Below are positions 9,648 to 39,711 of a DNA stretch of 64,000 bases, piece by piece. Source of the stretch: Phenylobacterium sp. (GTDB taxonomy: Bacteria > Pseudomonadota > Alphaproteobacteria > Caulobacterales > Caulobacteraceae); assembly GCF_013911965.1 (NCBI RefSeq), contig NZ_JACESE010000011.1:62001-126000 (forward strand). Direction: 5' to 3'. Position numbers and translations under genes: made by a program. The notes under the pieces are model-generated. The model had not been told where the DNA came from and did not search any database. It worked only from the letters and a program-made list of their open reading frames with translations. The number at the start of each line of letters is the position of its first letter. Position 1 is the stretch's first letter.

Positions 9648-9676
9648 AGCGTGGTCTTGTGCGTCCGCGGGCCCGT

Positions 9677-20337: not shown

Positions 20338-20391
20338 CAGACTCTGAGCGGCGAGAGCCGCGAGGCCCGACAAGGGCCATCCATACCCATG

Positions 20392-20404
20392 TGCTCACGG
20401 AGGA
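20392..20404 (+). promoter_or_regulatory. ROSE-like thermosensor hairpin over the ribosome site of the 20412 ORF
   Basis: UGCUC (20392-20396), loop ACG, GAGGA (20400-20404). The SD AGGA pairs with UGCU through U-A, G.G, C-G and U-A, the hallmark of ROSE RNA thermometers. Confidence 0.5.
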
Positions 20405-20411
20405 TGTGGCT

Positions 20412-20540
20412 ATGGCAAAGCTGAACCCATGGACCCGCGCCGGCTGGCGCCGCGTCCGCCTGGCCCTGCGGCGGCTCGGCCGCGAGCTTGGCCGATCGCT
20501 GGAGCGGATGGACCAGAACGGCGGGTTCATGACCCCGTAA
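20412..20540 (+). CDS. Tiny basic protein (42 aa)
   Basis: The ATG at 20412 follows CGGAGGATGTGGCT. The 42-residue product is strongly basic and amphipathic (TRAGWRRVRLALRRLGREL), ending NGGFMTP. Its leader (CCATGTGCTC-CGGAGGATGTGG) is nearly the same as that of the other small ORF at 21234, and both have heat-shock-like promoters. A membrane- or nucleic-acid-binding helix is plausible; no family is recognised. A GC-rich repeat separates it from dps. Confidence 0.55.
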   Translation: MAKLNPWTRAGWRRVRLALRRLGRELGRSLERMDQNGGFMTP

Positions 20541-20544
20541 CCGC

Positions 20545-20582
20545 CCGCCGCGGCGGCGCCGACCAAGGGCCGCCGCGGCGGC
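20545..20582 (+). repeat. Repeated GC palindrome between the 42-aa ORF and dps
   Basis: The 13-mer CCGCCGCGGCGGC occurs at 20545-20557 and 20570-20582. Each is itself palindromic, so the two copies can form one long hairpin. There is no T-tract; it could terminate the small transcript weakly or structure the dps leader. Confidence 0.4.
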
Positions 20583-20599
20583 AATCTTGGAGGACAAGC

Positions 20600-21100
20600 A
20601 TGCTGACTCAAGAGACGCCCAAGACGAGCTCGCCGGCGGCTCCGGCGCCCGCGGCCGGGGCCAACCAGGTCGCGCTGGCGCTCGGCAAGCTGCTCGCCGA
20701 CACGCACGCGCTCTACCTGAAAACCCACGGTTACCATTGGAACGTCCGCGGGCCGCAGTTCCCGGCGCTGCATCATCTGTTCGAGGAACAGTACAAGTCG
20801 CTTTGGGCCTCCCTCGACGAGATCGCCGAGCGGATCCGCGCGCTGGGCGCGCTTGCGCCCCAGGGCTACGCCTCGATGGCGAACCTGACCGGGGTCAAGG
20901 ACGGCGATCCGCACTGGAGCGCTCAGGAGATGCTGCGCGACCTGCTGACCGACCACGAGCAGGTGTGCGGCACGGTCAAGGCGGCGATCCAGGCGGCGGA
21001 GGCGGCTGGCGACGCCGCGACGGTCGACCTGCTGAACGACCGGCTGGCCGCCCACGAAAAGCACGCCTGGATGCTGCGCGCGACCCTCGCGCCCAACTGA
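20600..21100 (+). CDS. dps: DNA starvation/stationary phase protection protein Dps
   Basis: A 166-residue ferritin-like protein; the ATG at 20600 follows TTGGAGGACAAGC. The Dps ferroxidase signature is present: K-T-H-G-Y-H-W-N-V, H-x-L-F-E-E-Q-Y and D-E-I-A-E-R-I-R-A-L-G, with the inter-subunit iron ligands His and Asp/Glu. The N-terminal 20 residues are Pro/Ala-rich and probably flexible. It oxidises iron with peroxide and shields DNA. It follows terC and two small ORFs in the same direction. Confidence 0.95.
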   Translation: MLTQETPKTSSPAAPAPAAGANQVALALGKLLADTHALYLKTHGYHWNVRGPQFPALHHLFEEQYKSLWASLDEIAERIRALGALAPQGYASMANLTGVKDGDPHWSAQEMLRDLLTDHEQVCGTVKAAIQAAEAAGDAATVDLLNDRLAAHEKHAWMLRATLAPN

Positions 21101-21108
21101 TCTGCGGC

Positions 21109-21136
21109 GTTGCGCGCCGGTCTGCGCGCCCTAAAT
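21109..21136 (+). promoter_or_regulatory. RpoH-like promoter for the 68-residue ORF
   Basis: GTTG (21109-21112), 17 bp, CCTAAAT (21130-21136). Predicted leader of about 90 nt ending in a ROSE-like hairpin. Confidence 0.5.
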
Positions 21137-21211
21137 CGCCTATTGCCGGGCGCCGCCATGGGCCCGGCAGACGGTCGCGGGACCCATCCCCGCGACCCTC
21201 TCGTCACCATG

Positions 21212-21226
21212 TTGCTTTTCGGAGGA
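21212..21226 (+). promoter_or_regulatory. ROSE-like thermosensor hairpin over the ribosome site of the 21234 ORF
   Basis: UUGCUU (21212-21217), loop UUCG, GAGGA (21222-21226): U.G, U-A, C-G, G.G and U-A pairs mask the Shine-Dalgarno eight bases before the ATG. Confidence 0.55.
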
Positions 21227-21233
21227 TGTGGTC

Positions 21234-21440
21234 ATGAGAAACCTGTTCCGCGATGTCCGGCGCTGGCTGTCGGCCGAAGGCACAGACCTGCGTCGGCGGG
21301 AGGCCGAGGCCATCCACGCCCTGGAGACCGCGGCCTTCCCGAAGCTGGAGCGGACTGTCGATCGCGTCGGCATGATCGGCCTGCTTACGTTGGGCCTGCT
21401 CGCCGCCGCGGCGATGCTGATCGCTCCCAACTTCAAGTAG
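21234..21440 (+). CDS. Small single-pass membrane protein (68 aa)
   Basis: The ATG at 21234 was preferred over the GTG at 21228 because CGGAGGA is then correctly spaced. The product has a charged N-terminal helix (FRDVRRWLSAEGTDLRRREAEA) and one C-terminal membrane segment (GMIGLLTLGLLAAAAMLI). I do not know the family. Its leader combines a heat-shock-like promoter and a ROSE-like hairpin, which suggests it is made on temperature rise. Confidence 0.6.
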   Translation: MRNLFRDVRRWLSAEGTDLRRREAEAIHALETAAFPKLERTVDRVGMIGLLTLGLLAAAAMLIAPNFK

Positions 21441-21446
21441 CCAAGG

Positions 21447-21480
21447 CAGCCGCGCGCCCGCCCGGGCCGCGGCTGTTCCC
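21447..21480. terminator. Terminator-like hairpin between convergent genes
   Basis: CAGCCGCG (21447-21454) pairs with CGCGGCTG (21468-21475), followed by TTCCCTT. The T-tract is weak; it may serve the 21234 gene. Confidence 0.5.
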
Positions 21481-21486
21481 TTATCC

Positions 21487-24150
21487 TCACCCGCTGTTGC
21501 GCAGGCCTGAGGCGATCCCGTTCAGGGTCATCAGCAGGGCTTCCTTGAGCTTGGGGTCCTCCTCGCCCGCACGGCGGCGGCGGATCAGCTCGATCTGCAG
21601 GTGGTTGAGCGGATCGATATACGGGAGCCGTCCCTTGATCGCCTCGGCGAGCTGGGGCTCGCGCTCCAGCAGCTGCGATTGGCCGGTGATCTGCAACAGC
21701 CTGTCGACCGTGCGATCCCACTCCCCACGGATGCGCCCGAACACGTGGTCGCGAAGATCGGCGTCCGGCACGAGATCGGCGTAGCGCGCGCCGATCGCCA
21801 GGTCGGCCTTGGCCAGCACCATCTCCATGTTGCGCAAGGTGGCGCGGAAGAACGGCCATTCGGCCCACCACGCCTTGAGCCGCGCCAGATCGGCCTGCGC
21901 CGTGGCCGCGCCGAACCCATACCAGCCGGGCAGCATCACGCGCGCCTGCGACCAGGAGAACACCCAGGGTATCGCCCGCAGGCCCTCGATGGTCCGCGTG
22001 GCCTGGCGCGACACCGGGCGGCTGGCGATGTTGAGTTCGCCCAGTTCGGCGATCGGCGTGGCCGCAAAGAAGAAGTCGGCGAAGCCCTCGGTCTCGTAGA
22101 CGAGCGCGCGGTACGCCTGTCGCGAGGCCTCGGCGATGGCGTCCATGGCCTCAGCGTCGGCGGCGGGCGTATCCCGAGCGGCGGGCTTCAAGGAGGCGCT
22201 GATCACGCCGCAGGCCAGGGCTTCTAAGCTGCGGCGGGCGAGCGCAGCGTCGCCATACTTGTTCGCGATCACCTCGCCCTGCTCGGTCAACCGCATGCGG
22301 CCGCGCAGCACCCCCGGCGGCTGGGCGAGGATGGCCTCGAAGCTCGAGCCGCCGCCACGGCCAACCGCTCCGCCCCGGCCGTGGAAGAGCTGCAGGCGGA
22401 CCCCCTTGGCGTCGGCCAGGGCGGACAGCGCGGCGGAGGTGCGGTGGAGCTGCCAACTGGAGGTCAGATAACTGCCGTCCTTGCTGGAGTCGGAATAGCC
22501 GATCATCACCTCCTGGCGCGGCTCGGCGCGCAGCAGCGACGCCACGGCCTGGGTCTCCAGATAGGCGGCCAGCACCTCGGGCGCGGCCCGCAGGTCGGTG
22601 ATGGTTTCGAAGAGCGGCTCCACACGCAGAGCCGCCGACGGTCCGCCCGGATCGAAGAGGCCGACCTCCTTCATCAGGACGTAGGGCTCCAGCAGGTCGG
22701 ACACCGAACCGGCGTTGGAGACGATGTAGGCGCCGAGCGCCTCGGCGCCGAAGCGGGCCCTCGCGTCGGCGGCGGCCTTGAAGACGGCGTGCTCGCGCAG
22801 GGTCTCTTCGGAATAGCGGGCGAGCGGGGAGAACAGCGGACGCCGATGCGACAGTTCCTCCAGGAGGAGCCGTTGGCGGCCGCGCTCGTCGAGGGCGAGG
22901 TAATCGCGGCAGGCCCCCGCCTCGGCCAGGAGCTCGGCCACCACCCGTTCGTGCACCGCCGCGTTCTGGCGAAGGTCGAGGCTGGCCAGGTGGAAGCCGA
23001 ACACACGCACCGCGCGGATGAGGTTCGGCAGCGGGCCGTGGGCGAAGGCCTGGGCGTGCGTCTTCAGAAGCGACGCCTGCAGGATCTCCAGATCGGCGAT
23101 GAGTTCGTCCGGCGCGGCGTACGCCCGGGCTGCGGCGGCCGCCGGCCGGGGCGGCGCGCGCCCGGTGAGCGCCTGGAAGGTGGCCGCGAGCCGGGCGTAC
23201 ACGGCGGTCAGCGCGCGGCGGTAGGGCTCTCCGGCGCTGGTGGCAAGGACGTCCCCGAGGCTCTCGGCCAGGGCGGTCAGCTCGGGCGGCGGCGGAGCGA
23301 GGTCCTCGGACAGCGAAAGGCTCACGCCCAGCCGGCGGACCTCCTCGAGGTAGTGGCCGAGCACCGCCTCGGCCTGGCGGGCGAGCGCGCGCAGCAGCAC
23401 CTCGCCGGTGACATAGGGGTTGCCGTCGCGGTCGCCGCCGACCCAGCTGCCCAGGCGCAGGAAGCTCGCCAGCCCGGCTCCCAGCCGCCGCTCCCAAGCC
23501 TCGTAGAGCTGAGGCACGGCCGAGAGCAGGCTCGTGCGCATCACCGCCACGGCGTTCTCGACCTCGTCCAGCGGCGACGGCCTGGCGCTTCGCAGCAGCC
23601 GCGTGCCCCAAAGCAGCGCGACTTCGCGCAGCAAGGCTTCCGACAGCGCGGCCTCCCCGGGTCCGCAGTCAGGACGCGCCAGCGCCTGCAGCGTCTCGCG
23701 CAGGACGCGGGCGTGTTCGAGGACGCTGCGGCGGCGCACCTCGCTCGGGTGGGCGGTGAAGACCGGAACGACAAGGCTCTCCTCGAGCAAGGCGCGCACC
23801 TGATCCTTGTCGATCCCGGCCTCGGAGAGGCGCGCCAGCACGTCGTCGAGGCGCACGGCGTCCTCGCCCAGGCTCGCGCACCGCACCTGCATCGCGTCCT
23901 CGGCCGCGTTGGCCGCCTGGAGGAAGCAAGCGAAGCCGTGCACGACCTTGAAGGCTTCGTCGGCGCTCAGACCGTCGAGCAGCGCCGGCAGCTCCCCGGC
24001 CGCGCCCTGGAAGTGGCGGGCCACGGCGAGCCGACGCACCGCTTCGATGCGCGCGAAGGCGGCCGGGTCCTCCTCGCGGATGATCTGACCGAGCAGCGCC
24101 CCCACCTCCTGGGTGGCCGATCGAACGTCGCCCGGCGGGGTTGCGCTCAT
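21487..24150 (-). CDS. ppc: Phosphoenolpyruvate carboxylase
   Basis: An 887-residue enzyme making oxaloacetate from PEP and bicarbonate to refill the TCA cycle. The start at 24150 (MSATPPGD) was chosen; a 12-residue extension to 24186 lacks homology. Active-site motifs are VFTAHPSEVRRRS (catalytic His), GGDRDGNPYVT, MIGYSDSSKDGSYLTS, the glycine-rich LFHGRGGAVGRGGG loop, and RAIPWVFSWSQARVMLPGWYG. The C-terminus ends GIASGLRNSG, the usual functional tail. It is divergent from the GH1-like gene. Confidence 0.97.
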   Translation of the reverse strand: MSATPPGDVRSATQEVGALLGQIIREEDPAAFARIEAVRRLAVARHFQGAAGELPALLDGLSADEAFKVVHGFACFLQAANAAEDAMQVRCASLGEDAVRLDDVLARLSEAGIDKDQVRALLEESLVVPVFTAHPSEVRRRSVLEHARVLRETLQALARPDCGPGEAALSEALLREVALLWGTRLLRSARPSPLDEVENAVAVMRTSLLSAVPQLYEAWERRLGAGLASFLRLGSWVGGDRDGNPYVTGEVLLRALARQAEAVLGHYLEEVRRLGVSLSLSEDLAPPPPELTALAESLGDVLATSAGEPYRRALTAVYARLAATFQALTGRAPPRPAAAAARAYAAPDELIADLEILQASLLKTHAQAFAHGPLPNLIRAVRVFGFHLASLDLRQNAAVHERVVAELLAEAGACRDYLALDERGRQRLLLEELSHRRPLFSPLARYSEETLREHAVFKAAADARARFGAEALGAYIVSNAGSVSDLLEPYVLMKEVGLFDPGGPSAALRVEPLFETITDLRAAPEVLAAYLETQAVASLLRAEPRQEVMIGYSDSSKDGSYLTSSWQLHRTSAALSALADAKGVRLQLFHGRGGAVGRGGGSSFEAILAQPPGVLRGRMRLTEQGEVIANKYGDAALARRSLEALACGVISASLKPAARDTPAADAEAMDAIAEASRQAYRALVYETEGFADFFFAATPIAELGELNIASRPVSRQATRTIEGLRAIPWVFSWSQARVMLPGWYGFGAATAQADLARLKAWWAEWPFFRATLRNMEMVLAKADLAIGARYADLVPDADLRDHVFGRIRGEWDRTVDRLLQITGQSQLLEREPQLAEAIKGRLPYIDPLNHLQIELIRRRRAGEEDPKLKEALLMTLNGIASGLRNSG

Positions 24151-24183
24151 GGTCCGTAGGCTCCGACGGCCGCGGAGAACCTT

Positions 24184-24206
24184 CACGGCAAGGCCGTGTT
24201 TGTTTT
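24184..24206 (+). terminator. Terminator-like hairpin in the leader of the GH1-like gene
   Basis: CACGGC (24184-24189), loop AAG, GCCGTG (24193-24198), then TTTGTTTT. It lies before any plus-strand gene end, so it may act as an attenuator of the gene starting at 24231, or be coincidental. Confidence 0.4.
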
Positions 24207-24230
24207 CCCGGAGGCTTTCAGGATGGACCG

Positions 24231-25547
24231 ATGACGCTCTTCATGTTCGCCACGGGGATCGAGAATTCCTACCCCACCATCCACCAGGGCCGCACGCGGG
24301 TCGACGAGATGGACGCCTGCCGCCACTACGCGCGCTGGCAGGAGGACTTCGCCCTCGTCCAGGATCTCGGCATCCACTTCCTGCGCTACGGGCCGCCGCT
24401 GCACCGGGTCTGGCTGGGGGACGGGCGATACGACTGGGAATTCACCGACCTGGCGTTCGCCGAGCTGAGACGGCGCGACATCGTCCCGATCGCCGACCTC
24501 TGCCACTTCGGCGTGCCGGATTGGATCGGCAACTTCCAGAACCCCGACTTCCCCGCCCTCTTCGCCCGTTACGCCGGCGACTTCGCACGGCGCTTTCCCT
24601 GGGTGCAGCTCTACACCCCGATCAACGAGATGTTCATCTGCGCCACCTTCTCGGCCAGGTACGGCTGGTGGAACGAGCAGATGACGACCGACCGCGGCTT
24701 CGTCACCGCCCTCAAGCACATCGCCCGGGCCAATGTGTTGGCCATGCAGGCGATCCTGGACGTGCGTCCCGACGCGCTCTTCGTACAGAGCGAGTCCTCC
24801 GAATACTTCCATGCCGACAGTCCCGCGGCCATCGGCCCGGCGGAGTTCATGAACGCCGTGCGCTTCCTGGCGCTCGACCTGAACTACGGGATCCGGGTCA
24901 ATTCCGAGATGTACCGCTACCTGATGGACAACGGGATGACGGCGGCGGAGTACGACTTCTTCATGCACGCGCGGCTGAAGTCGCACTGCATCCTCGGCAA
25001 TGACTACTACGTCACCAACGAGCACCGGATCTGGCCGGACGGCCACACCCGCGCCGCCGGGGAGGTGTTCGGCTACGACGAGATCACGCGGCAGTACTAC
25101 GCCCGCTATCACCTGCCGGTGATGCACACCGAGACCAACTACCTTCAGGGCGAACGGGGCGACGAGGCGGTCCTGTGGCTCTGGAAGGAGTGGGCCAACG
25201 TCCTGCGCATCCGCAACGACGGCGTGCCGATCGTCGGCTTCACCTGGTATTCGCTGACCGATCAGGTCGATTGGGACACGGCGCTTCGCGAAAAGAACGG
25301 GCGGGTGAACGCGCTTGGGCTCTATGACCTCGACCGGCGAATCCGGCCCGTAGGCCAGGCCTACAAGGAGCTGATCGCCGCCTGGCGCGACGTCCTTCCC
25401 ACCCAGAGCATCTGCCTGCAGGTCCCGGTCATCCTGCCCAGCGAGTTCGAGGAGGGCTTCGTGCAGCGCCGGATGGCCGAAGCGCGCGAGCGCCGGCTCG
25501 CGCGGGGTTCGGCCGGGACGCTTCCTGGCGCGGGTCGAAGCGACTGA
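24231..25547 (+). CDS. Glycoside hydrolase family 1-like protein
   Basis: A 438-residue TIM-barrel protein. The acid/base Glu is in LYTPINEMF and the nucleophile Glu in VMHTETNY, the two GH1 motifs (T-x-N-E and x-T-E-N). Other GH1 features are LRYGPPLHRVW, LCHFGVPDWI and FTWYSLTDQVDWD. It lacks a signal peptide, so it is cytoplasmic. Members cleave beta-glucosides or related sugars; the exact substrate cannot be told. The start at 24231 was preferred to an upstream in-frame ATG at 24141 that overlaps ppc. Confidence 0.85.
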   Translation: MTLFMFATGIENSYPTIHQGRTRVDEMDACRHYARWQEDFALVQDLGIHFLRYGPPLHRVWLGDGRYDWEFTDLAFAELRRRDIVPIADLCHFGVPDWIGNFQNPDFPALFARYAGDFARRFPWVQLYTPINEMFICATFSARYGWWNEQMTTDRGFVTALKHIARANVLAMQAILDVRPDALFVQSESSEYFHADSPAAIGPAEFMNAVRFLALDLNYGIRVNSEMYRYLMDNGMTAAEYDFFMHARLKSHCILGNDYYVTNEHRIWPDGHTRAAGEVFGYDEITRQYYARYHLPVMHTETNYLQGERGDEAVLWLWKEWANVLRIRNDGVPIVGFTWYSLTDQVDWDTALREKNGRVNALGLYDLDRRIRPVGQAYKELIAAWRDVLPTQSICLQVPVILPSEFEEGFVQRRMAEARERRLARGSAGTLPGAGRSD

Positions 25548-25583
25548 AAGGAAGCTCCTGGTCACGGCGGCGGCCTGACGGCC

Positions 25584-26438
25584 TCAGAGCATCGGCCGGC
25601 CGCCGGTGACGGCCACCGTTGCGCCCGAGACGTAGCTCGCCTCGTCCGAGGCCAGGAGCACATAGACCGGTGCGACTTCCTTGGGCTGGCCCGGCCGCTT
25701 CATCGGGGTGTTGGCCCCGAACTGCCTCACCTTCTCGGGCGGCATGGTGGCCGGGATCAGCGGGGTCCAGATCGGACCCGGCGCGACGCAGTTCACCCGC
25801 ACCCCCTTCTCGGCGAGCATCTGCGCCAGACCTGCGGTGAAGTTCTGGATGGCGCCCTTGGTGGTCGCATAAGGCAGCAGGGAGGGATTGGGATCGTCCG
25901 CGTTGATGGAGGTGGTGTTGATGATCGCCGACCCCGGCTTCAGGTGCGGCAGGGCCGCCTTGGCCAGGTGGAACATGGCGTGGATGTTGACCTGGAAGGT
26001 CCGCGCCCAGGCCTCCTCGCTGATCTCGTCGAGGCTCTTGTAGGTCGCCTGCTCGGCGGCGTTGTCGACCAGCACGTCGAGCCGACCGAATTCGCTGACG
26101 GTCTTCTCCACCAAGGCGCGGCAATGCGCCGGGTCGGCAAGGTCGCCGGGCAGCAAGAGGCAGCGACGTCCCGCCGTCTCCACCCAGCGCCGGGTCTCCT
26201 CGGCGTCGTCGTGCTCGTTGAGATAGCCGATCGCGACGTCTGCGCCCTCCCGCGCGAACGCGATGGCCACGGCCCGCCCAATGCCGCTGTCCCCGCCGGT
26301 GATCAGGGCTGCCTTGCCTGCCAGGCGGCCCGATCCCTTGTAGGACTGCTCGCCGTGGTCGGGCTTGGGCTCCATCTGTGACGTCGTCCCCGGCGGGGTT
26401 TGGCTCTGGTCGGGGAACGGCGGCTGGGGCTCGGTCAT
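25584..26438 (-). CDS. SDR-family oxidoreductase with polar N-terminal extension (YghA/GSP39-like)
   Basis: A 284-residue short-chain dehydrogenase starting at 26438 after TCGGAGGCCAAG. The first 40 residues are Pro/Gln-rich (P-F-P-D-Q-S-Q-T-P-P-G), as in YghA and the Bacillus general-stress protein 39. Then come TGGDSGIG (cofactor), DNAAEQ, the catalytic Ser in INTTSINAD, Y-A-T-T-K, and PGPIWTPLIP. The enzyme is NAD(P)-dependent; its substrate is unknown. GSP39-type proteins are classical general-stress products, in line with the neighbourhood. Confidence 0.9.
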   Translation of the reverse strand: MTEPQPPFPDQSQTPPGTTSQMEPKPDHGEQSYKGSGRLAGKAALITGGDSGIGRAVAIAFAREGADVAIGYLNEHDDAEETRRWVETAGRRCLLLPGDLADPAHCRALVEKTVSEFGRLDVLVDNAAEQATYKSLDEISEEAWARTFQVNIHAMFHLAKAALPHLKPGSAIINTTSINADDPNPSLLPYATTKGAIQNFTAGLAQMLAEKGVRVNCVAPGPIWTPLIPATMPPEKVRQFGANTPMKRPGQPKEVAPVYVLLASDEASYVSGATVAVTGGRPML

Positions 26439-26527
26439 CTTGGCCTCCGAGTGGAACGGACCAGCGCAAAACGTAGGGCTGGGCGACGGGGTTTCGCGGA
26501 ACTCCACTTGGCCTGCACTGTCTAGAC

Positions 26528-26545
26528 GGTGCACTGTGGTGCACC
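26528..26545. promoter_or_regulatory. Palindrome upstream of groESL
   Basis: GGTGCAC-TGTG-GTGCACC is a perfect 7-4-7 inverted repeat in the 298-bp interval between the SDR gene and groES. No CIRCE element (TTAGCACTC-N9-GAGTGCTAA) is present. It may be an operator; its binder is unknown. Confidence 0.4.
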
Positions 26546-26593
26546 ATCGGAGCCCGCCGCAAGCAACGTCACCGCACGAGTACTTCCTTTTGC

Positions 26594-26618
26594 GGAACTT
26601 TGCCGCTTCGCCGACGTT
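26594..26618 (+). promoter_or_regulatory. Sigma-EcfG-like promoter for groESL
   Basis: GGAAC (26594-26598), 16 bp, CGTT (26615-26618), a perfect consensus match. It lies about 118 bp upstream of the groES start. No convincing RpoH promoter was seen for this operon. Confidence 0.6.
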
Positions 26619-26736
26619 TCGCGCGCGAGGGGCCGGCCGGGCTGACATGGCGCAGCTGGCGCGCCGCCCTTTCGGCTGAACTTTAAGAGGATGAAGGGGC
26701 TGGGCCCCTGGGCCCGGCGGAGGAACGGAGGCTGGA

Positions 26737-28666
<1,930 letters not shown>

Positions 28667-28683
28667 GCAAACCCACTAGCACG

Positions 28684-28720
28684 ACGCCGGCCGCCCCTCT
28701 CAGCGGCCGGCGTTCTTTCT
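28684..28720 (+). terminator. Rho-independent terminator of groESL
   Basis: A perfect 11-bp stem ACGCCGGCCGC / GCGGCCGGCGT (28684-28694, 28703-28713) with an 8-nt loop, followed by TTCTTTCT. Confidence 0.9.
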
Positions 28721-28768
28721 CTGACACTATATATACGTGTCGCTGCGAGCGCCTTCTGCGCGGGGCGC

Positions 28769-30502: not shown

Positions 30503-30572
30503 GCGGACCCGTCCTCGGCTGGGCGCGCCGGCGGTCGGATCTGGTGTCCGCCGCCGGCGACGCCGTGTCGCC

Positions 30573-32021: not shown

Positions 32022-32040
32022 GTCTCTCCTCTCCTCGGAC

Positions 32041-32080
32041 TAAGAAAAGGAGACCGGCGGGAGCGGCCCCGCCGGTCTCC
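32041..32080 (-). terminator. Rho-independent terminator after the 32084 gene
   Basis: A perfect 12-bp stem GGAGACCGGCGG / CCGCCGGTCTCC (32049-32060, 32069-32080), followed on the minus strand by TTTTCTTA. It separates the small-protein operon from degP. Confidence 0.9.
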
Positions 32081-32083
32081 GGT

Positions 32084-32770: not shown

Positions 32771-32783
32771 GGCTCAACTCCGA

Positions 32784-33116
32784 TCAGTTCTGGGCGCGCC
32801 CTGCCTCCCGATCGGGCGACAGCGTTGCGAACGCCCCTTCGAACTCGTCGGCCGCCGCAGGATCGAACCGGGCCAGGGCGCCCAGCACGGCCTCGCAGGC
32901 CGCGGTCTGCGCGGTCCCGTCGCGGGCTTCGCGCAGAAGGTCCCGGGCCCAGCTCCAAAGGATCAGGCGCTTCTCCTCGCGGGACAGCCAGGCGTGGTTG
33001 GCCACCACGTCGGGCGAGGCGAAGGCCGTTCTCGGATCCAGCAGAGCGTCGACGAAGGGGCGACCGACGATGGCGATCCCGGCGGGCGCGGACACGCCCT
33101 GGCTTTGGGTTGTCAT
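32784..33116 (-). CDS. Small protein of the unnamed family, copy 2 (110 aa)
   Basis: A 110-residue soluble protein whose core (VDALLDPRTAFASPDVVANH, L-S-R-E-E-K-R-L-I-L-W-S-W-A, then L-A-R-F-D-P-A-A-A-D-E) aligns along its length with the protein at 18925. The C-terminus is polar. It precedes the fusion protein at 32084 by 13 bp and follows hsp20 copy 2 by 61 bp, so it belongs to a heat-shock gene block. Function unknown. Confidence 0.65.
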   Translation of the reverse strand: MTTQSQGVSAPAGIAIVGRPFVDALLDPRTAFASPDVVANHAWLSREEKRLILWSWARDLLREARDGTAQTAACEAVLGALARFDPAAADEFEGAFATLSPDREAGRAQN

Positions 33117-33177
33117 GGCGTAGCTCCGGAAAGGATTCCGCGCCGCCCGCGCCTGGCGCGGACGGCGCGGCGCTCAG

Positions 33178-33693
33178 TTAGCCCTTGCTGATCGGGATCC
33201 TCCGGACGCCCTCCTGCTGGGCCTTGGACTTCGGAAGGGTGACCGTCAGGACGCCCTTCTTGAAGTTGGCCTTGATCGCATCCTCGTCGATGGCGACAGG
33301 CACCGGCACCACCCGCTCGAAGCGGCCATAGTAGTGCTCGCTGTAGTGCCGATCCTTGTCCTCGACATCGGAGCGCTTCTCGCCCCGCAGGACCAGGACG
33401 CCGTCTTCGAACACCACGTCGACGTCGTTTTCATCCATGCCCGGCAGCTCGGCCGAAACGCGGATGGTCTTGGCGTCCTCGGCCACCTCGACGCTGGGCC
33501 AACTGGCGGAGCGGCCCAGGATGGAGCCCCCGAAGTCGCGGAAGACGTCGTCGAAGAGGCGGTTCACCTCTCGATGAAGGGTGAGGAACGGATGGGTTTC
33601 CTCGTCGCGACGAGAGGTCGTGGTGAGCGCGCCCTCGTGCGGACGATGGTCATGCTCATGCCGTCCCCAAGGGATCAGATCACGAAGTTGCAT
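33178..33693 (-). CDS. Hsp20/alpha-crystallin family small heat-shock protein (copy 2)
   Basis: A 171-residue Hsp20. The alpha-crystallin domain covers about residues 62-160 with SVEVAEDAKTIRVSAELPGM, V-L-R-G-E-K-R, EHYYGRFERVVPVP and G-V-L-T-V-T-L-P-K-S; the tail R-R-I-P-I-S-K-G holds the I-x-I motif. The His-rich N-terminus (H-E-H-D-H-R-P-H) is distinctive. It is close to copy 1. The leader has CCUC-GUA-GAGG over the ribosome site, a possible non-ROSE hairpin. It follows copy 3 in the same direction by 73 bp. Confidence 0.93.
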   Translation of the reverse strand: MQLRDLIPWGRHEHDHRPHEGALTTTSRRDEETHPFLTLHREVNRLFDDVFRDFGGSILGRSASWPSVEVAEDAKTIRVSAELPGMDENDVDVVFEDGVLVLRGEKRSDVEDKDRHYSEHYYGRFERVVPVPVAIDEDAIKANFKKGVLTVTLPKSKAQQEGVRRIPISKG

Positions 33694-33766
33694 CGTCAGC
33701 TCTCCTCTACGAGGCGGCCTGACGCCGCGAACCTGCGCGGCGCCGGCCGCCGGCCATCACGGTCGC

Positions 33767-34243
33767 TCAGTGGGTCTTCTGCTCCGTCTCGCCGGAGCCG
33801 ATGGCGGACTGGCCCGAACCGGTGATCTCGATCCTCTTCGGCTTCAGGGCCTCCGGGATCTCCCGCACCAGCTCGAGGGTCAGCAGGCCGTTCTCCAGGC
33901 GCGCGTTCTGCACGCGCACATGGTCGGCGAGCTCGAAGGTCCGACGGAACGGCTGCTGGGCGATGCCGCGATAGACGACCTCGCCGTCCTCCTGCACCTC
34001 CTGCGGCCGGCCGCTGACGGTCAGCCGGTTGGGTTCGGAGACGATCTCCAGATCGCCGTCGCGGAAGCCCGGCACCGCCAGAACGATGCGGTAGTGATCG
34101 CCGTCGGCCTGCACGACATTGTAGGGAGGCCAGTTCAGGCCAGGGACCGAGCCGCTCATCGCACGGTCCATCAGGCTCAGCGCGCTGTCGACGCTCGGCA
34201 TGGGCCGATAGCCGGACATCGGCGTCATAGTGTTCATCCTCAT
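33767..34243 (-). CDS. Hsp20 family protein, IbpA type (copy 3)
   Basis: The ATG at 34243 (RBS CGGAGGAC) gives 158 residues; a longer frame to 34318 covers the thermosensor leader and is unlikely. Features of IbpA-class sHsps are the early Y-x-P-x-x-S-V-D and NWPPYNVVQADGDHYRIVLAV, followed by ELADHVRVQNARLENGLLTLEL and K-P-K-R-I-E-I at the end. IbpA genes in Proteobacteria are commonly under ROSE thermosensor control, matching the hairpin directly upstream. The promoter at 34338-34365 is a very good heat-shock match. Confidence 0.93.
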   Translation of the reverse strand: MRMNTMTPMSGYRPMPSVDSALSLMDRAMSGSVPGLNWPPYNVVQADGDHYRIVLAVPGFRDGDLEIVSEPNRLTVSGRPQEVQEDGEVVYRGIAQQPFRRTFELADHVRVQNARLENGLLTLELVREIPEALKPKRIEITGSGQSAIGSGETEQKTH

Positions 34244-34250
34244 GGTCCAA

Positions 34251-34268
34251 GTCCTCCGTTGAGCAACA
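34251..34268 (-). promoter_or_regulatory. ROSE-like RNA thermosensor hairpin of hsp20 copy 3
   Basis: On the minus strand UUGCUC, loop AACG, GAGGA: C-G, U-A, C-G, G.G and U-A pairs cover the Shine-Dalgarno. The UGCU/AGGA pairing with a central G.G is the conserved ROSE core. The full leader (start site near 34331) is about 88 nt, a normal ROSE length. Confidence 0.65.
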
Positions 34269-34337
34269 TGGGTTTGAGGAGCGCCGGACACCGCCGGCGC
34301 CCGCCGCCGGACCTTCATCAGCGTCCGGCAAGACTTG

Positions 34338-34365
34338 AGGTAGGGCGCTCGCCACGCCCTGCAAG
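34338..34365 (-). promoter_or_regulatory. RpoH-like promoter of hsp20 copy 3
   Basis: On the minus strand CTTG (34365-34362), 17 bp, CCTACCT (34344-34338). Exact -35 and spacing. Confidence 0.65.
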
Positions 34366-34449
34366 ACCAATTTTCTGCATGTTTTCAGAGGCGCGCGGCG
34401 GCGCGCGAGCGCACGCGGGGGTCCTACGGACGCCCGCGAAAAACGCGCC

Positions 34450-34671
34450 TCAGAACAGCGGCCCTTCGAACTCCAGGAGCTTCGAGGGCCGGATCTTCAA
34501 CGCCATGGCGGTGTGCCAGATGGTCAGGATGGTCGGGTTGCGGCGGCCCAACTCGAGTCCGCTGACATAGGCCCGGTCCACGCCCATCAGCTCGGCGAGC
34601 GCTTCCTGCGAAAGGCCTGCCTCGCCGCGGTATCGCCTGACGTTGGATCCTACGATTGTGCGAACGTCCAT
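34450..34671 (-). CDS. XRE-family helix-turn-helix regulator (73 aa)
   Basis: A 73-residue protein that is all DNA-binding domain: NVRRYRGEAGLSQEALAELMGVDRAYVSGLELGRRNPTILT-type XRE fold (residues about 8-60), with a short tail KIRPSKLLEFEGPLF. It resembles single-domain phage-repressor-like regulators common in alphaproteobacteria. It lies between hsp20 copy 3 and the SRPBCC gene, all on the minus strand. A role in controlling the adjacent heat-shock genes is possible but not shown. Confidence 0.88.
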   Translation of the reverse strand: MDVRTIVGSNVRRYRGEAGLSQEALAELMGVDRAYVSGLELGRRNPTILTIWHTAMALKIRPSKLLEFEGPLF

Positions 34672-34780
34672 GCCGACCTACCAACATGAACGAGGATTTT
34701 GATGCTACGCACTTAATTGCACGGTGAAGGCCTGGTTCCCACCTCGTTCAGGAACCCGGCGCGTCTTGTCCGGCGGCTCA

Positions 34781-35269
34781 TCAGGCGCTCAGCACCGCCC
34801 GAGCAGTCGGGCTCGCCGCCTCGGCGTATTCGCGCAGGATGTACGGCCAGCCGTCGGGCGAAGCCATGCCCCCGCGCAGCAAGTCTGCGCCCGCGCCGTG
34901 ACGAGCGAAACCGCGATGCTCGACCTCCACGCGCGTCAGCTTGGAGCCCAGCGGGAGGAAGCGAACCTCGACCTCGCTCGCGCGCTCCGGCGGCTCCTGC
35001 CCCCGGTCGGCCGAAACCGCCCAGCTCAGCACCAGGCGCCGGTCAGGCTCGAACGCGCGCACTTCCCCCCAGTCAAGGCGACGGCCGCGCCGGTCGACCT
35101 CATACCAGCGACCGCCGGCGCGAGGCTCTATGGCGACGCCGGCGAGGTCGTCACGCGAGAAGGTGTAGGCCCTGGGCCACCAATCGCCGATCCGCTCGGC
35201 GAACACTCGAAAGGAATGCTGAACGGGCGCGCTGAGGGTGACGCCCGCCTTCACAGGTTCGTCCGTCAT
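34781..35269 (-). CDS. SRPBCC (START/AHSA1-type) domain protein
   Basis: A 162-residue protein with the AHSA1-like helix-grip fold: V-T-L-S-A-P-V-Q-H-S-F-R-V-F at the start, I-G-D-W-W-P, E-P-R-A-G-G-R-W-Y-E, WGEVRAFEPDRRLVLSW, and a long C-terminal helix (GWPYILREYAEAA). These bind small hydrophobic ligands or, as in Aha1, act on chaperones. It is soluble, with no signal peptide. It lies 81 bp upstream of the window's XRE gene and 82 bp downstream of ftsH start region order (minus strand: ftsH, then this gene). Confidence 0.88.
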   Translation of the reverse strand: MTDEPVKAGVTLSAPVQHSFRVFAERIGDWWPRAYTFSRDDLAGVAIEPRAGGRWYEVDRRGRRLDWGEVRAFEPDRRLVLSWAVSADRGQEPPERASEVEVRFLPLGSKLTRVEVEHRGFARHGAGADLLRGGMASPDGWPYILREYAEAASPTARAVLSA

Positions 35270-35350
35270 GGTGATGCTCCGAAGCGCCGCCGCGCCCCCT
35301 CCGGCGCTGCGGCCTGAGTGAACGCAGACGCCGGGCCTCCAGTTTCCGTC

Positions 35351-37183
35351 TCACGCGGCGGAAGACCTACGAGCCTCGCCGTCCGGCGCGCCGGCGAGCT
35401 CCGCAAGCTCGGCTTCATCCAAGGTCTCCTTTTCGAGCAGCAGCCGGGCGCCGCGCTCGAGCGCGCCGCGGCGGCTTTCGAGAATCTCCACCGTGCGCGC
35501 GAACGCCGCCTCGACGAGGGCGCGCACCTCCTCGTCGATCGCGTCGGAGGTCGCCTCGCCGAAGTCCTTGTCCCGCAGGAAGGGCGCCGGCGCGTCGCCG
35601 GTGGCGAGGAACGAGCGCGGCTCCCGGTCGTAGGAGACCGGGCCCAGCCGATTCGACATGCCGTAGCGCGTGACCATGCTGCGGGCGATGTCGGTGACCT
35701 TGCGCAGGTCGTCGGCCGCTCCGGTCGAGAGATGGCCGTAGATGATCCACTCCGCGGCGCGGCCGCCGAGCAGGGCGCACATCTTGTTCTCGAGCTCCTC
35801 GCGGGTCATCAGGAACCGGTCCTCGGTCGGGCGCTGGATGGTGTATCCGAGCGCCCCCACCCCGCGCGGAATGATCGAGACCTTATGCACCTGCTCGACG
35901 CCAGGCAGCGCGAGGCCGACGAGGGCGTGACCCATCTCATGATGGGCCACCACCTCCCGTTCCTTCGGATTGAGGATGCGGTTGCGCTTCTCCAGGCCGG
36001 CGATGATCCGCTCCACCGCCTCATTGAAGTCGGTCATGGTGATCGCGGCCGCGCGGCGGCGGGTGGCCAGCAGGGCCGCCTCATTGACCAGGTTGGCGAG
36101 GTCGGCCCCCGTGAAGCCTGGGGTGAGGGCCGCCACCTTTTCGAGGTCCACTTCCGGCGCGAGCTTCACCTTGCGGGTATGCACCTTCAGGACCTCCACC
36201 CGGCCCTTCTTGTCGGGCCGGTCCACCAGGACCTGGCGATCGAACCGGCCGGCGCGCAGAAGCGCCGGATCGAGGATCTCGGGCCGGTTGGTGGCGGCGA
36301 GCAGCACCAGGCCGGTGCTGGAGTCGAAGCCGTCCATCTCGACCAGCAGCTGATTGAGCGTCTGCTCCTTTTCGTCGTGGCCGCCGTAGGCGTAGAGGCC
36401 GCGCGCCCGGCCGAGCGCGTCCAGCTCGTCGATGAAGATGATGGCGGGCGCCTTCTGGCGCGCCTGCTCGAAGAGGTCGCGGACCCGCGCGGCGCCCACG
36501 CCCACGAACATCTCCACGAACTCCGAGCCGGAGATGGAGAAGAAGGGAACCTTGGCCTCGCCGGCGACGGCCTTGGCCAGCAGCGTCTTGCCGGTGCCGG
36601 GCGGCCCCACCAGCAGCACGCCCTTGGGCATGCGGCCGCCCAGGCGGCCATACTCCTGAGGATTCTTCAGGAAGTCGATGATCTCGCGCAGCTCGTCCTT
36701 GGCTTCGTCGACCCCAGCGACGTCGGCGAAGGTGACGCCGGTGTTGGCCTCGACATAAATCTTCGCCCGGCTGCGGCCCACCTGCATGAGGCCGCCCGCG
36801 CCGGCCGCCTTCTGCCCCAGGTACATCCACAGGCCGAAGAAGAGCAGCACCGGGATCACCCAGGAGAGCAGGTCCCGGAGGAAGGTGTTCTCAATCTGGC
36901 CGGTATAGGTGACGCCGTGCTGCTGGAGTTCGCGCGCGAGCTCCGGCTCGACCCGTGTGGTGACGAAGGCCTTCTTGCCTTCGAGGGGCTCTTTCAGGCG
37001 ACCCTGCACGAAGCGGTCGGAGACCCCGACCTCGGCCACCTTGCCGTCCCGCAGCAGCTGCTGGAACTGGCTGTAGGGGATTTGCGCGACCTGGGTTGCG
37101 GCCGCGATGTAGTGCTGGATCGCGATCACGCCGAAGAAGGCGATGATCCAGTAGATGACGTGGAAGCGGGTCTGCTTGTTCAT
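35351..37183 (-). CDS. ftsH: ATP-dependent zinc metalloprotease FtsH (accessory copy)
   Basis: A 610-residue membrane AAA+ protease. Two membrane segments (about 9-28 and 103-123) flank the periplasmic domain. The AAA module has [17 protein letters not shown], the [13 protein letters not shown] pore region, [11 protein letters not shown] and the second region of homology [21 protein letters not shown]. The protease domain has the zinc motif HHEMGH (usual form HEAGH) and the third ligand in [10 protein letters not shown]. It degrades unstable and damaged membrane proteins. Its location among sHsp genes suggests an accessory copy, as in stress-tolerance islands. Confidence 0.95.
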
Positions 37184-37223
37184 GGACGCCTCGCGCGATC
37201 AGGAGCGGGCCCCAAGGCGCGCC

Positions 37224-37610
37224 TCAGGGCTTCGCGCCCTTTGGGAGCGCGGCCACCTCCGTGGGGCTCAGTTTGCGCACGTTGCGGACCATGCATTTCT
37301 GCGGACCGATGGCGGAGGGCGTCACGATCTCAGCGTCCAAGCCCGAGCAGATGGTGGAGCCGCCGCGGGATATCAGGGCGATCTTCTGCGTCCAGTCCAC
37401 GTCGGGACAAGGCCCGAAGAGCTCCAGCTGATAGTAGTCCTTGACGCCCACTCGCAGGTTCACCGTGCGGTCGCCCTGCGCGGCGAAGCTGTTCACCTGA
37501 TGGTTCCAGAAGCATTGCCGCGGCTGACTCGGCTTGTCGGCTGAGACGGCCGGCGCGGCGCCGACCCCGATCAACAGGGCCGTCGCGGCGGCCAAGACCC
37601 TTGTCCTCAT
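37224..37610 (-). CDS. Secreted DUF6491-like protein
   Basis: A 128-residue protein with a signal peptide (MRTRVLAAATALLIGVGAAP, cleavage near SADK). The mature part begins with R-Q-C-F-W, has four cysteines (positions about 33, 68, 88, 106) and the pattern R-V-G-V-K-D-Y-Y-Q-L-E-L and W-T-Q-K-I-A-L, which I associate with DUF6491, a periplasmic alphaproteobacterial family. Two disulphides are possible. Start at 37610 chosen for the signal peptide and the AAGGAGGA ribosome site, which a UCCUU-UGG-AAGGA hairpin could mask. A heat-shock-like promoter lies 41 bp upstream. Confidence 0.75.
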   Translation of the reverse strand: MRTRVLAAATALLIGVGAAPAVSADKPSQPRQCFWNHQVNSFAAQGDRTVNLRVGVKDYYQLELFGPCPDVDWTQKIALISRGGSTICSGLDAEIVTPSAIGPQKCMVRNVRKLSPTEVAALPKGAKP

Positions 37611-37650
37611 TTCAAAGATCCTCCTTCCAAAGGATCCCCCGACGCGGGCG

Positions 37651-37678
37651 ATATAGAGCGGGGCGCCCGGCGCGGAAG
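37651..37678 (-). promoter_or_regulatory. RpoH-like promoter of the 37224 gene
   Basis: On the minus strand CTTC (37678-37675), 17 bp, TCTATAT (37657-37651). Confidence 0.5.
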
Positions 37679-37699
37679 ACGGCGCGGCGGCCGGCCCGC

Positions 37700-38311
37700 T
37701 CAGGCGGAAACCAGAGCGCCGTGGCGGGCATATCGCCGGACCTCGTGCTCGGCGGTGATCGCGGGATGCTCGCGGGCGGCGCGCCAGAGGTCTGAGGATC
37801 CGATGCTGCCGTGGGGACCATGGCGGCCGATGGTCAACGCCGTCCGGTGCGCCTCCGCGCTCGTCCATTCGGCAAGATTGTAGACGGACGCGCCGTCGCG
37901 GCCGGCGAAGAAGTTGGCCGTCAGCAGACCTTCCGGCGGCGTCGCATCGCCGTCGAGGGCCCGCAGCACCGTGGACACCCAGTCCCGCTGGGCGGCGGGA
38001 TCCGGGGCCTTCAGCGGCTGGCGAACGACCACCAGGCAGCCGGGCGCTTCGCTCCGCTCCGCCCGCCACGAGGCGATCCGTTGCGCATCGGCGGACCAGG
38101 CCAGCTCGGCGTTGTGGACATGCGGCGCTTCGGGACAAGGCTCCCAGGCGATCGCCAGCAAGGCGGGCGCATCGAGGTCGTCGAAGAGCTGCAGCCGAGA
38201 GTCTGTTCCGATGACATTCCGCGCCGCCGCCGAGCGGTTGGCGGCGTTCGGGAACACCCAGCGCCAGATGCGAACGGTTTCGGCATCGCTGGCGCCGATG
38301 AGGCCGGTCAT
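37700..38311 (-). CDS. Two-repeat ABM-like (dimeric alpha/beta barrel) protein
   Basis: A 203-residue soluble protein starting at 38311 after AAGGAGGATCGAG. The C-terminal half has the antibiotic-biosynthesis-monooxygenase-like pattern: GLLTANFFAGRDGASVYNLAEW followed by a helix S-A-E-A-H-R, and the first half has a weaker echo (LVVVRQPLKAPDP). This suggests a fused ferredoxin-like pair. No cofactor motif is visible, and the function is unknown. It has a heat-shock-like promoter and is divergent from the RcnB-like gene. Confidence 0.65.
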   Translation of the reverse strand: MTGLIGASDAETVRIWRWVFPNAANRSAAARNVIGTDSRLQLFDDLDAPALLAIAWEPCPEAPHVHNAELAWSADAQRIASWRAERSEAPGCLVVVRQPLKAPDPAAQRDWVSTVLRALDGDATPPEGLLTANFFAGRDGASVYNLAEWTSAEAHRTALTIGRHGPHGSIGSSDLWRAAREHPAITAEHEVRRYARHGALVSA

Positions 38312-38387
38312 CTCGATCCTCCTTGAGATAGCGCGAGCCGCGCAGGGGCCCGCGATACGGCGCCTTGCAGCGCCCTTGACAGCCATC

Positions 38388-38415
38388 AGCTAGGGCGCGG
38401 CAAACGCGGTGCAAC
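38388..38415 (-). promoter_or_regulatory. RpoH-like promoter of the 37700 gene
   Basis: On the minus strand GTTG (38415-38412), 17 bp, CCTAGCT (38394-38388). Start codon at 38311. Confidence 0.45.
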
Positions 38416-38506
38416 ACGGCCCGTCTTGAAGGCCGGCCGGCGCGCGATACCTCGTCCTTCAGCCGCGCTTTTGCGGCGGCCGAAAAACATCTCGAGAGGT
38501 GAGACG

Positions 38507-38854
38507 ATGAAGCGTCTGGCTGCGGCCCTGGCCGCGGTGCTGGCGTTCGGCGCCTCCGTGGCGTCGGCGCACCCGCACCGGGAGGGCTACTGGGTCTATC
38601 ACGGCCGGCACTGGCCGGTTTACCGCGAAGTCTATGTCCCGCCGCCCGGCTGGATCGAGCGGCGCTGGATCGTCGGCGAGCGACTGCCGCCGGCCTACTA
38701 CGGCCCACCCTATGTGATCGTGGACTGGCGCGCGCGGCATCTGCGCAAGCCGCCGCGGGGCCACCACTGGGTTCGGGTCGGCGACGACGTCGTGCTGGCG
38801 GCGATCGCCAGCGGCCTGATCACCGAGGTGATCCGGGGCGTCTACGCCCGCTAG
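38507..38854 (+). CDS. RcnB-family periplasmic protein
   Basis: A 115-residue protein with a signal peptide (MKRLAAALAAVLAFGASVASA). The mature part is rich in Trp/Tyr/His/Arg and has the RcnB pattern Y-x-G-x-x-L-P-P-A-Y-Y, V-I-V-D-W-R, L-R-K-P-P-R-G-H-H-W-V-R-V-G-D-D and a final hydrophobic helix A-I-A-S-G-L-I. RcnB proteins affect nickel/cobalt homeostasis in the periplasm in E. coli; the role here is unknown. The ribosome site AGAGGTG can pair with CAUCU just upstream through a CGAG loop. Confidence 0.8.
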   Translation: MKRLAAALAAVLAFGASVASAHPHREGYWVYHGRHWPVYREVYVPPPGWIERRWIVGERLPPAYYGPPYVIVDWRARHLRKPPRGHHWVRVGDDVVLAAIASGLITEVIRGVYAR

Positions 38855-38863
38855 CCGCCTCCG

Positions 38864-38893
38864 AGGCGCCGCAGGCGAGCGCCTGCGGCGCCT
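38864..38893 (+). terminator. Long hairpin after the RcnB-like gene
   Basis: AGGCGCCGCAGGCG (38864-38877) and CGCCTGCGGCGCCT (38880-38893) form a perfect 14-bp stem with a minimal AG loop, ten bases after the stop. No T-tract follows, so it may stabilise the mRNA end rather than terminate. Confidence 0.6.
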
Positions 38894-38921
38894 GTCGTGC
38901 TTTGTTGGATGGAGTGATGCG

Positions 38922-39374
38922 ATGACCGACAGAATTGAGACCCTCGTCATCCTGGCCGACGGCGTTCAGGCCCGCGGCCTTGCCGAGCGCCGGCGCCACG
39001 GCCCCCTGGCCGAGCTTGCGAGCTGGTCGCTCAAGGCCGACGAGCACGACCGGCACTGGGCGCGCACGCATGGGGGGACGGTGAACGACCGCATGGGCTA
39101 CGGCCGCGACAATGTCCTGGAGGCGCCGCCGGCCGAGGCGGCCGAGAAGCGCTTCCTCGAAGGCGTGGCCGAACGGCTCAACCGCAGCGCCGCGGCCGGC
39201 CAGTTCGAGAAGCTCGTGCTGATGGCGCCGCCCCGCGCCCTGGGCGTGCTTCGCCATGCGCTCAAGCCCGCCGTCGCGCGGCGGATCGAGGTGACGGACG
39301 ACCACGAGCGCATCAAAGCAAGCGCTGAGGACGTGCGGCTGATCCTGCGCGATCTTCGCATCCCGGAGCGCTGA
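38922..39374 (+). CDS. Host attachment family protein
   Basis: A 150-residue protein of the family named after an Agrobacterium attachment protein. Hallmarks are the opening strand LVILADGVQARGL, a mid region with GGTVNDRMGYGRDN, the E-A-E-K-R-F-L-E-G-V-A-E-R-L helix and F-E-K-L-V-L-M-A-P-P-R-A-L-G-V-L-R, a Pelota/eRF1-like fold. In many Proteobacteria it sits with sHsps, USPs and PHA genes in low-oxygen/stress clusters, as here; the molecular role is unknown. The RcnB-like gene is just upstream. Confidence 0.87.
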   Translation: MTDRIETLVILADGVQARGLAERRRHGPLAELASWSLKADEHDRHWARTHGGTVNDRMGYGRDNVLEAPPAEAAEKRFLEGVAERLNRSAAAGQFEKLVLMAPPRALGVLRHALKPAVARRIEVTDDHERIKASAEDVRLILRDLRIPER

Positions 39375-39451
39375 CCGAGCGCCTCTGTATGGAGATGAGG
39401 CGGCGCTCAACGGCGGCCTCGCCGCCCCTGTTCCGACGCTCGCGCGGTCTT

Positions 39452-39477
39452 GGAACCGGCCTCGGAACAGAGTCGTT
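39452..39477 (+). promoter_or_regulatory. Sigma-EcfG-like promoter
   Basis: GGAAC (39452-39456), 17 bp, CGTT (39474-39477), a perfect match. The predicted start site near 39484 is about 230 bp before hsp20 copy 4, so it may drive a long leader or a separate small RNA. Confidence 0.6.
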
Positions 39478-39483
39478 CAACGC

Positions 39484-39551
39484 GCGCCTCCCAAGGCAGA
39501 GGATCCTTCTTGAGCAAGCCGGCGCAGGCTGCGTAGCAAAGCGCCTGCGCC
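39484..39551 (+). ncRNA. Candidate general-stress small RNA or leader segment
   Basis: A transcript from the EcfG promoter would contain CCUCCC-type anti-Shine-Dalgarno sequence and a perfect 11-bp stem (39517-39527 with 39541-39551, 13-nt loop). There is no T-tract, so a discrete 3' end is uncertain. Caulobacter has a sigma-T-dependent sRNA (GsrN) of similar size; similarity in sequence is not claimed. Confidence 0.25.
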
Positions 39552-39597
39552 GGAACATGCCGCCTCCCCTCCCCCGCCTGTCCTCTCCAGAATTGGG

Positions 39598-39625
39598 ATT
39601 GTGCGGGCCCCGCCTCGACCTAAAT
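39598..39625 (+). promoter_or_regulatory. RpoH-like promoter of hsp20 copy 4
   Basis: ATTG (39598-39601), 17 bp, CCTAAAT (39619-39625). Predicted leader about 80 nt, ending in the ROSE-like hairpin. Confidence 0.55.
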
Positions 39626-39689
39626 CCAGCTCAAGGCCGCGGCGCCTCTGCTGGGTCGCGGCCCGTCGCCAAGTCGGCGTCAGATCCAC

Positions 39690-39706
39690 GTTGCTTCGAG
39701 GAGGAC
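39690..39706 (+). promoter_or_regulatory. ROSE-like RNA thermosensor hairpin of hsp20 copy 4
   Basis: UUGCU (39691-39695), loop UCG, AGGAG (39699-39703): U-A, C-G, G.G, U-A, U.G pairs sequester the Shine-Dalgarno 9 bases before the ATG. Confidence 0.65.
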
Positions 39707-39711
39707 TGGAG

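Follow-up and report, generated by a model that had tools for sequence, protein, structure and literature searches.

Four leaders and the genes at the locus

In this study, we analysed a 64,000-nucleotide window of a Phenylobacterium genome (positions 62001-126000 of contig C3; the genome, G000, has 3,863,399 bases in 33 contigs) that carries four leaders resembling ROSE RNA thermometers. The leaders were designated A, B, C, and D. Leader A (20344-20411, plus strand) precedes a 42-residue open reading frame (ORF) at 20412-20540 (plus), and leader B (21143-21233, plus) precedes an orphan 68-residue ORF at 21234-21440 (plus). Leader C (34244-34331, minus) is followed by an hsp20 gene at 33767-34243 (minus; Pfam HSP20, E 9.4e-17) and leader D (39632-39711, plus) by another at 39712-40245 (plus; Pfam HSP20, E 1.7e-16). 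A preliminary description of this DNA had reported a hairpin at the end of each leader and had noted that two of the leaders do not precede small heat-shock protein (sHsp) genes. The coordinates and sequences of the four hairpins were as described, and no Pfam family over cut-off was found in the ORF behind A or B. We consider it probable, with roughly three chances in four, that A to D act as RNA thermometers of the ROSE type, that they lie behind RpoH-type promoters within a heat-stress island of plasmid character, and that the cargo of two of them is unusual.

Window positions 16500-41000 aligned over their full length, collinearly and with 91.4% identity, to plasmid NC_011143.1 of Phenylobacterium zucineum HLK1, which is predicted to be conjugative. 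We infer that C3 is likewise plasmid DNA in the present genome. The gene order common to both is trypsin-like peptidase, TerC, 42-residue ORF, Dps, 68-residue ORF, phosphoenolpyruvate carboxylase, GroES/EL, YbaL, Do protease, two Hsp20, FtsH, and a further Hsp20. Nine Hsp20 proteins, two rpoH genes, and two dnaK-grpE clusters are attributed to the HLK1 plasmid in passages of its published account (PMC2529317). The Rfam ROSE model RF00435 reported all four leaders in genome G166, which we take to be HLK1, and also in a further genome, G006, where D lies at a contig end.

RpoH-like promoters had been proposed ahead of the leaders, and TTG-N17-CCTA was indeed present at all four. The fuller pattern TTG-N17-CCTANMT, which we take to represent the RpoH type of alphaproteobacteria, was located at 20311-20337 (plus) for A, where it reads TTG-N17-CCTAGAT and is identical in HLK1. 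The promoters of B (21110-21136, plus; TTG-N17-CCTAAAT), C (34338-34364, minus; TTG-N17-CCTACCT), and D (39599-39625, plus; TTG-N17-CCTAAAT) take the same form in HLK1. Seven matches to the pattern fell in the window, where 0.04 would be expected; since it was written from the four leaders, only the other three matches are independent. Genome-wide there were 20 matches (three in the reversed control), and ten of them lay on contig C3, which accounts for 150 kb of 3.86 Mb. Six of these ten are independent, the rest being the leaders from which the pattern came. The HLK1 stretch gave six matches, including those of all four leaders. With transcription assumed to start about 7 nt past the -10 box, leader A would span 68 nt, B 91 nt, C 88 nt, and D 80 nt. 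The three additional window matches are at 9657-9683 (plus), 38388-38414 (minus), and 49035-49061 (minus). The one at 9657 precedes an ORF (9729), and both it and the one at 38388 have a counterpart in the HLK1 stretch. By eye, no TGCT and no ROSE core were seen in the leaders of these three promoters.

In each of the four leaders, TGCT is followed by a short loop and then by GGAGGA, with the start codon another 6-8 nt away. The pattern TGCT-N2-6-GGAGGA-N4-9-ATG, derived from the four sites themselves, matched the window at exactly these leaders, and 20 dinucleotide-shuffled windows yielded one match in total. A looser pattern (TTGCT, a gap, GGAGGA, start codon optional) occurred five times in the genome, including B, C, and D. 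Its reversed control occurred four times, and the core by itself is therefore unremarkable.

Covariance models and hairpin folds

The gathering cut-off of RF00435 is 45 bits. Leader B (match 21146-21240) scored 67.7 bits and leader C (34237-34328) scored 55.7 bits, and these were the only two Rfam matches over cut-off in the window, both to ROSE. When the genome was searched with RF00435 at E<=10, with 150 of 366 first-look candidates scored in full, four matches were obtained, which were exactly A to D, and B was the top match. A second model, R1, was built for the 3' hairpin from 35 of 59 sHsp-associated matches in other genomes, none from the island. In the window it placed B (49.2 bits), C (44.2 bits), D (22.3 bits, E 0.0022), and A (16.4 bits) as the top four, followed by a match of 11.7 bits. 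No other convincing RF00435 or R1 site was found in the window, in G000, G006, and G166, or in the HLK1 stretch, although two G000 places that score above A by R1 were not inspected. The anti-Shine-Dalgarno motif U(U/C)GCU, given for ROSE in parts of PMC3669281, was present in B, C, and D, all of which carry UUGCU.

Folded alone, all four 3' ends were predicted to form a hairpin over the Shine-Dalgarno (SD) sequence with an unpaired or mismatched G. The energies of these 48-nt ends were -14.0 to -15.5 kcal/mol, and those of the 35 hairpins behind R1 averaged -12.7 (sd 2.9, range -21.2 to -6.4). The preliminary description had UGCU pair with AGGA through U-A, G.G, C-G, and U-A. This held for leader A only, whereas B, C, and D fold as U-A, U.G, a bulged G, C-G, and U-A. 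The full fold of leader A gave a z-score of -4.59. Its terminal hairpin, at about 20381-20415, is identical in HLK1 and G006; the predicted stem has a single symmetric G.G mismatch opposite the SD, and a second stem extends to the start codon. In piecewise folds, the changes between HLK1 and the window avoid predicted pairs in A and D, and the single paired change in B keeps its pair. These results show that B and C are ROSE elements by sequence and model, and A and D are probably ROSE-like. The observation that opened the preliminary description was confirmed and its interpretation partly supported: the covariance search it had proposed as a check upheld B and C, while A and D fell below the cut-off.

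Several results weigh against a thermometer at every one of the four sites. Over the whole genome, RF00435 scored A at 26.1 bits (E 0.13) and D at 23.6 bits (E 0.43). Neither was listed in the window at E<=5 when all Rfam families competed; in a smaller all-family search A was listed at E 0.91, and D was not listed at E<=1. Leader A ranked sixth genome-wide by R1, under two unrelated places in G000, and its HLK1 copy was not listed by R1 at E<=10, scoring 13.7 bits separately. The core of A reads CCAUGUGCUC, with one U fewer than the UUGCU of the other leaders, and the resulting UGUGCU departs from U(U/C)GCU. The 3' ends were matched or exceeded in stability by 400 (A), 96 (B), 53 (C), and 396 (D) of 1000 shuffles. 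When leader D was folded at full length, its hairpin was missing from the minimum-energy structure, and the stability of that fold was unremarkable (z -0.63, with 39 of 200 shuffles equally stable). In leader C, four HLK1 changes fall on predicted pairs, and three of them disrupt the pairing in piecewise folds. The HLK1 copy of leader C (L041; L038 33028-33077, minus) has an extra G in the SD strand, and its ROSE score is down to 41.8 bits. Finally, the computed opening of the SD from 20 to 52 C was small: 0.33 to 0.43 for A, 0.22 to 0.41 for B, 0.20 to 0.32 for C, and flat at 0.48 for D. Energy models of this type miss the non-canonical pairs of ROSE. The temperature curves, and the shuffle stability of A and D, were set aside as not diagnostic.

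Leader A could instead be an ordinary SD hairpin, with the 42-residue ORF and the dps gene behind it heat-inducible by RpoH alone and only B, C, and D being ROSE elements. The altered motif, the score of 26.1 bits, the sixth rank by R1, and the shuffled tails all favour such a hairpin, but A is one of only four places in the genome that RF00435 reported among the candidates scored in full, it has the RpoH-like promoter, its hairpin is unchanged in HLK1, and its arrangement CCAUG..GCUC..GGAGGAUGUGG recurs in ROSE hairpins elsewhere in the class. We regard this account as unlikely, though it deserves more weight than the other alternatives considered here. That the leaders are protein-binding or RNase-processing sites and do not sense temperature is very improbable. 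A conserved leader structure would fit such sites too, but these leaders match ROSE, whose studied members are thermosensors according to sections of two papers (PMC3669281, PMC4166951).

Genes behind ROSE elements

A 2014 review states, in the portion consulted, that the ROSE family is always tied to sHsp genes (PMC4166951), and the preliminary description had likewise held ROSE to be known almost only for sHsps. We counted what follows ROSE matches in three samples of alphaproteobacterial genomes. Among 66 matches, 59 lay before sHsp genes or their remains, three before the ORF of leader B, two before a sigma factor, and two before other frames. The family sample (E<=0.01) contributed 41 matches in 29 of 199 genomes: 36 before sHsp frames (counting leader C of the window, and L007, which is cut short), three before the B ORF (G000, G006, and G166), and the two others, which are an apparent sHsp gene with its middle missing (L019) and a frame that joins an sHsp-like start to another protein (L032). 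The class sample (E<=0.001) gave 13 matches in 12 of 385 genomes; two were B and C, and the remaining 11, including L057, preceded sHsp genes. The order sample around G714 (E<=0.0001) gave 16 matches in 11 of 150 genomes, two of them already counted. Twelve of the 14 new ones preceded sHsp sequence (shifted in L078, cut down in L084), and two, L076 and L088, preceded a sigma-70-family protein. Strict E filters lose weak matches, so leaders like A and D are outside this count.

The sigma-factor matches both come from one genome, G877, and scored 87.8 bits (L076) and 70.8 bits (L088). The sigma-70 identity rests on Pfam for L076 and on a near-identical translation for L088. The first 12 or so residues of this protein resemble the N terminus of an sHsp of the same genome, and the leader and first codons of L076 are closely like those of L085, which precedes an sHsp, before the two diverge. 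ROSE in G877 thus seems to have moved along with an sHsp start. As with A and B, the thermometer there stands on a non-sHsp gene. However, the B ORF starts with MRN and the A ORF with MAK, and neither has a longer sHsp-like stretch by eye. The rpoH1 gene of B. japonicum is reportedly under ROSE control as well, which our literature search did not confirm. In Pseudomonas aeruginosa, rhlA, lasI, and ibpA carry ROSE or ROSE-like thermometers, as set out in parts of a 2026 review (PMC13104619). ROSE outside sHsp genes is rare, with precedents: the restriction to sHsps stands for most sampled matches, but not for rhlA, lasI, and the sigma factor of G877.

Deletion can place a ROSE element before another frame, as the decayed loci L019, L084, and L032 illustrate, and the arrangements at A and B could have arisen in this way. 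At L032 (1581-2024), ROSE and an sHsp-like N terminus stand in frame with an exported-looking protein lacking a Pfam match, which may be a decaying or a captured thermometer. Alternatively, A and B could be relics that lost or exchanged the sHsp gene behind ROSE, the small ORFs being frames that remain there by chance. Decay of ROSE-sHsp loci is indeed seen (L019 and L084 appear to lack the middle of the gene, L007 and L078 are cut or shifted, and L032 has another protein in frame with an sHsp-like start), yet the orthologs of the B ORF have no sHsp match, neither small ORF has a Pfam family over cut-off, and both are full length in three genomes with gene-like codon composition. The hairpin of A is unchanged, and B retains a complete ROSE element and promoter. 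We consider relics quite improbable.

Judged from its sequence, leader B belongs among the standard ROSE elements, and its cargo is an orphan protein of 68 residues. This protein starts with MRN, has one predicted membrane helix at about residues 45-63, near the C terminus, and has no Pfam or NCBIfam family over cut-off. G+C content at the three codon positions was 0.68/0.46/0.87 in its ORF and 0.70/0.56/0.88 in the 42-residue ORF, similar to the Hsp20 genes (0.67/0.44/0.91 and 0.68/0.48/0.90). Between the window and HLK1 there were four nucleotide changes in the 42-residue ORF and three in the 68-residue ORF, giving two amino-acid changes each, which is too few for a selection test.

We searched for relatives of both small proteins. 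The protein P0001 was found in one plasmid record (HLK1) and in one named genome; among 200 genomes of the order it was found in G000 and G006, and three further weak matches within longer frames were taken as chance. Its weak family matches, to an NCBIfam RiPP-leader domain (16.6 bits, cut-off 40) and to Pfam (13.2 bits, cut-off 22.1), were rejected. For P0002, a DNA search with the ORF recovered HLK1 over the full length together with four short partial matches in unrelated records, and the 200 genomes again yielded G000 and G006. A weak P0002 match in G020 was rejected, as it lies antisense to what we read as a ribosomal protein L19-like frame. A tblastn search of plasmids with P0002 gave no match and also missed the known HLK1 copy, so it is uninformative. 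Apart from that search, the plasmid and 200-genome searches showed no homolog of either protein beyond this island.

The 42-residue protein behind leader A is basic (net charge +7), starts with MAK, and has no Pfam or NCBIfam family over cut-off; its ORF is annotated as a coding sequence in HLK1. The dps gene (20600-21100, plus; Pfam PF00210, E 6.5e-33), encoding a ferritin-like DNA-protection protein and annotated as such in HLK1, begins 59 nt past it. The gap (20541-20599, plus) is predicted to form a strong G+C hairpin (-39.6 kcal/mol) followed by the SD of dps, and 56 of its 59 nt are as in HLK1. A simple scan found neither a sigma-70-like promoter nor a terminator-like site in it. Within the gap, 20541-20582 is a long G+C-rich inverted repeat without a T run, which is also present in HLK1. 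From this arrangement, the 42-residue ORF is likely to be the first frame of one unit with dps. In 28 dps loci of Caulobacteraceae beyond the island's two, no ROSE hairpin was found by R1 at E<=5. These loci were drawn from 149 genomes, 88 of which had a Dps match, so the 28 cover only a minority, and the second Dps of G000 was outside the sample.

On the minus strand, a second hsp20 gene (33178-33693; Pfam HSP20, E 4.8e-22) lies 73 nt downstream of the one under leader C. Both are probably in one operon.

Proposed heat gating and related systems

If A to D are ROSE-type thermometers, the 3' hairpin would mask the SD at low temperature, and on heating the weak UGCU/AGGA core would melt and allow ribosomes to load. 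Each of the four transcription units would then have two gates, one set by the heat-shock sigma factor and the other by melting of the RNA. Leaders C and D would gate Hsp20 as usual, B would gate the 68-residue protein with its membrane helix, and A, with a slightly altered core, would gate the 42-residue ORF that leads the dps unit. Dps might be co-induced solely at the promoter level, or through relief of polarity when ribosomes translate the first frame. Melting, sigma-factor control, a joint A-dps transcript, and roles for the small proteins are all presumed here.

The kind of element is known (ROSE), and what is new is the genes that A and B precede, together with the variant core of A. 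Compared with RF00435, the leaders share a multi-hairpin structure, a 3' hairpin over the SD with an unpaired G, and a heat-shock-type promoter, and B and C pass the cut-off. They differ in that A and B do not precede sHsp genes, A is one anti-SD U short, and A and D stay under the cut-off. Among known systems, the arrangement of leader A and dps is best compared with rhlA of Pseudomonas. According to portions of the 2026 review (PMC13104619), rhlA is a non-sHsp gene and the first frame of a polycistronic unit, improved translation of rhlA increases read-through into rhlR, and its anti-SD diverges from U(U/C)GCU while the G opposite the SD is kept. The genes and the bacterial class are, however, different. 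In literature searches made mostly at title level, no record was found of a thermometer on Dps, or of ROSE before dps or on this plasmid, and no title on ROSE with alphaproteobacterial hypothetical proteins or with the locus of heat resistance concerned the present case.

More tentatively, we propose that ROSE may act as a portable heat gate on this plasmid island, placed on an orphan 68-residue membrane protein and on a 42-residue first frame whose gated translation controls Dps, and that the symmetric G.G core of leader A may mark a subtype of ROSE. If so, the examples on this predicted conjugative plasmid would show ROSE being reused with different cargo and able to pass from host to host. 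Leader A would then be a natural variant for testing which core features thermosensing needs.

The content of window positions 16500-41000 (sHsp, FtsH, DegP, a Kef-type transporter, and GroEL) recalls the mobile heat-resistance islands of gammaproteobacteria, although the core differs. No dna-shsp20-clpG core operon is listed in the annotated 40 kb of HLK1, which holds 46 features; no search for ClpG was made in the remaining plasmid or in the window. The transmissible locus of protein quality control (TLPQC), or locus of heat resistance, is likewise a mobile cluster with sHsp, FtsH, DegP, and a Kef-type transporter, but its sHsp20GI is reported to be produced at 20 to 42 C, as far as excerpts of PMC7685784 indicate.

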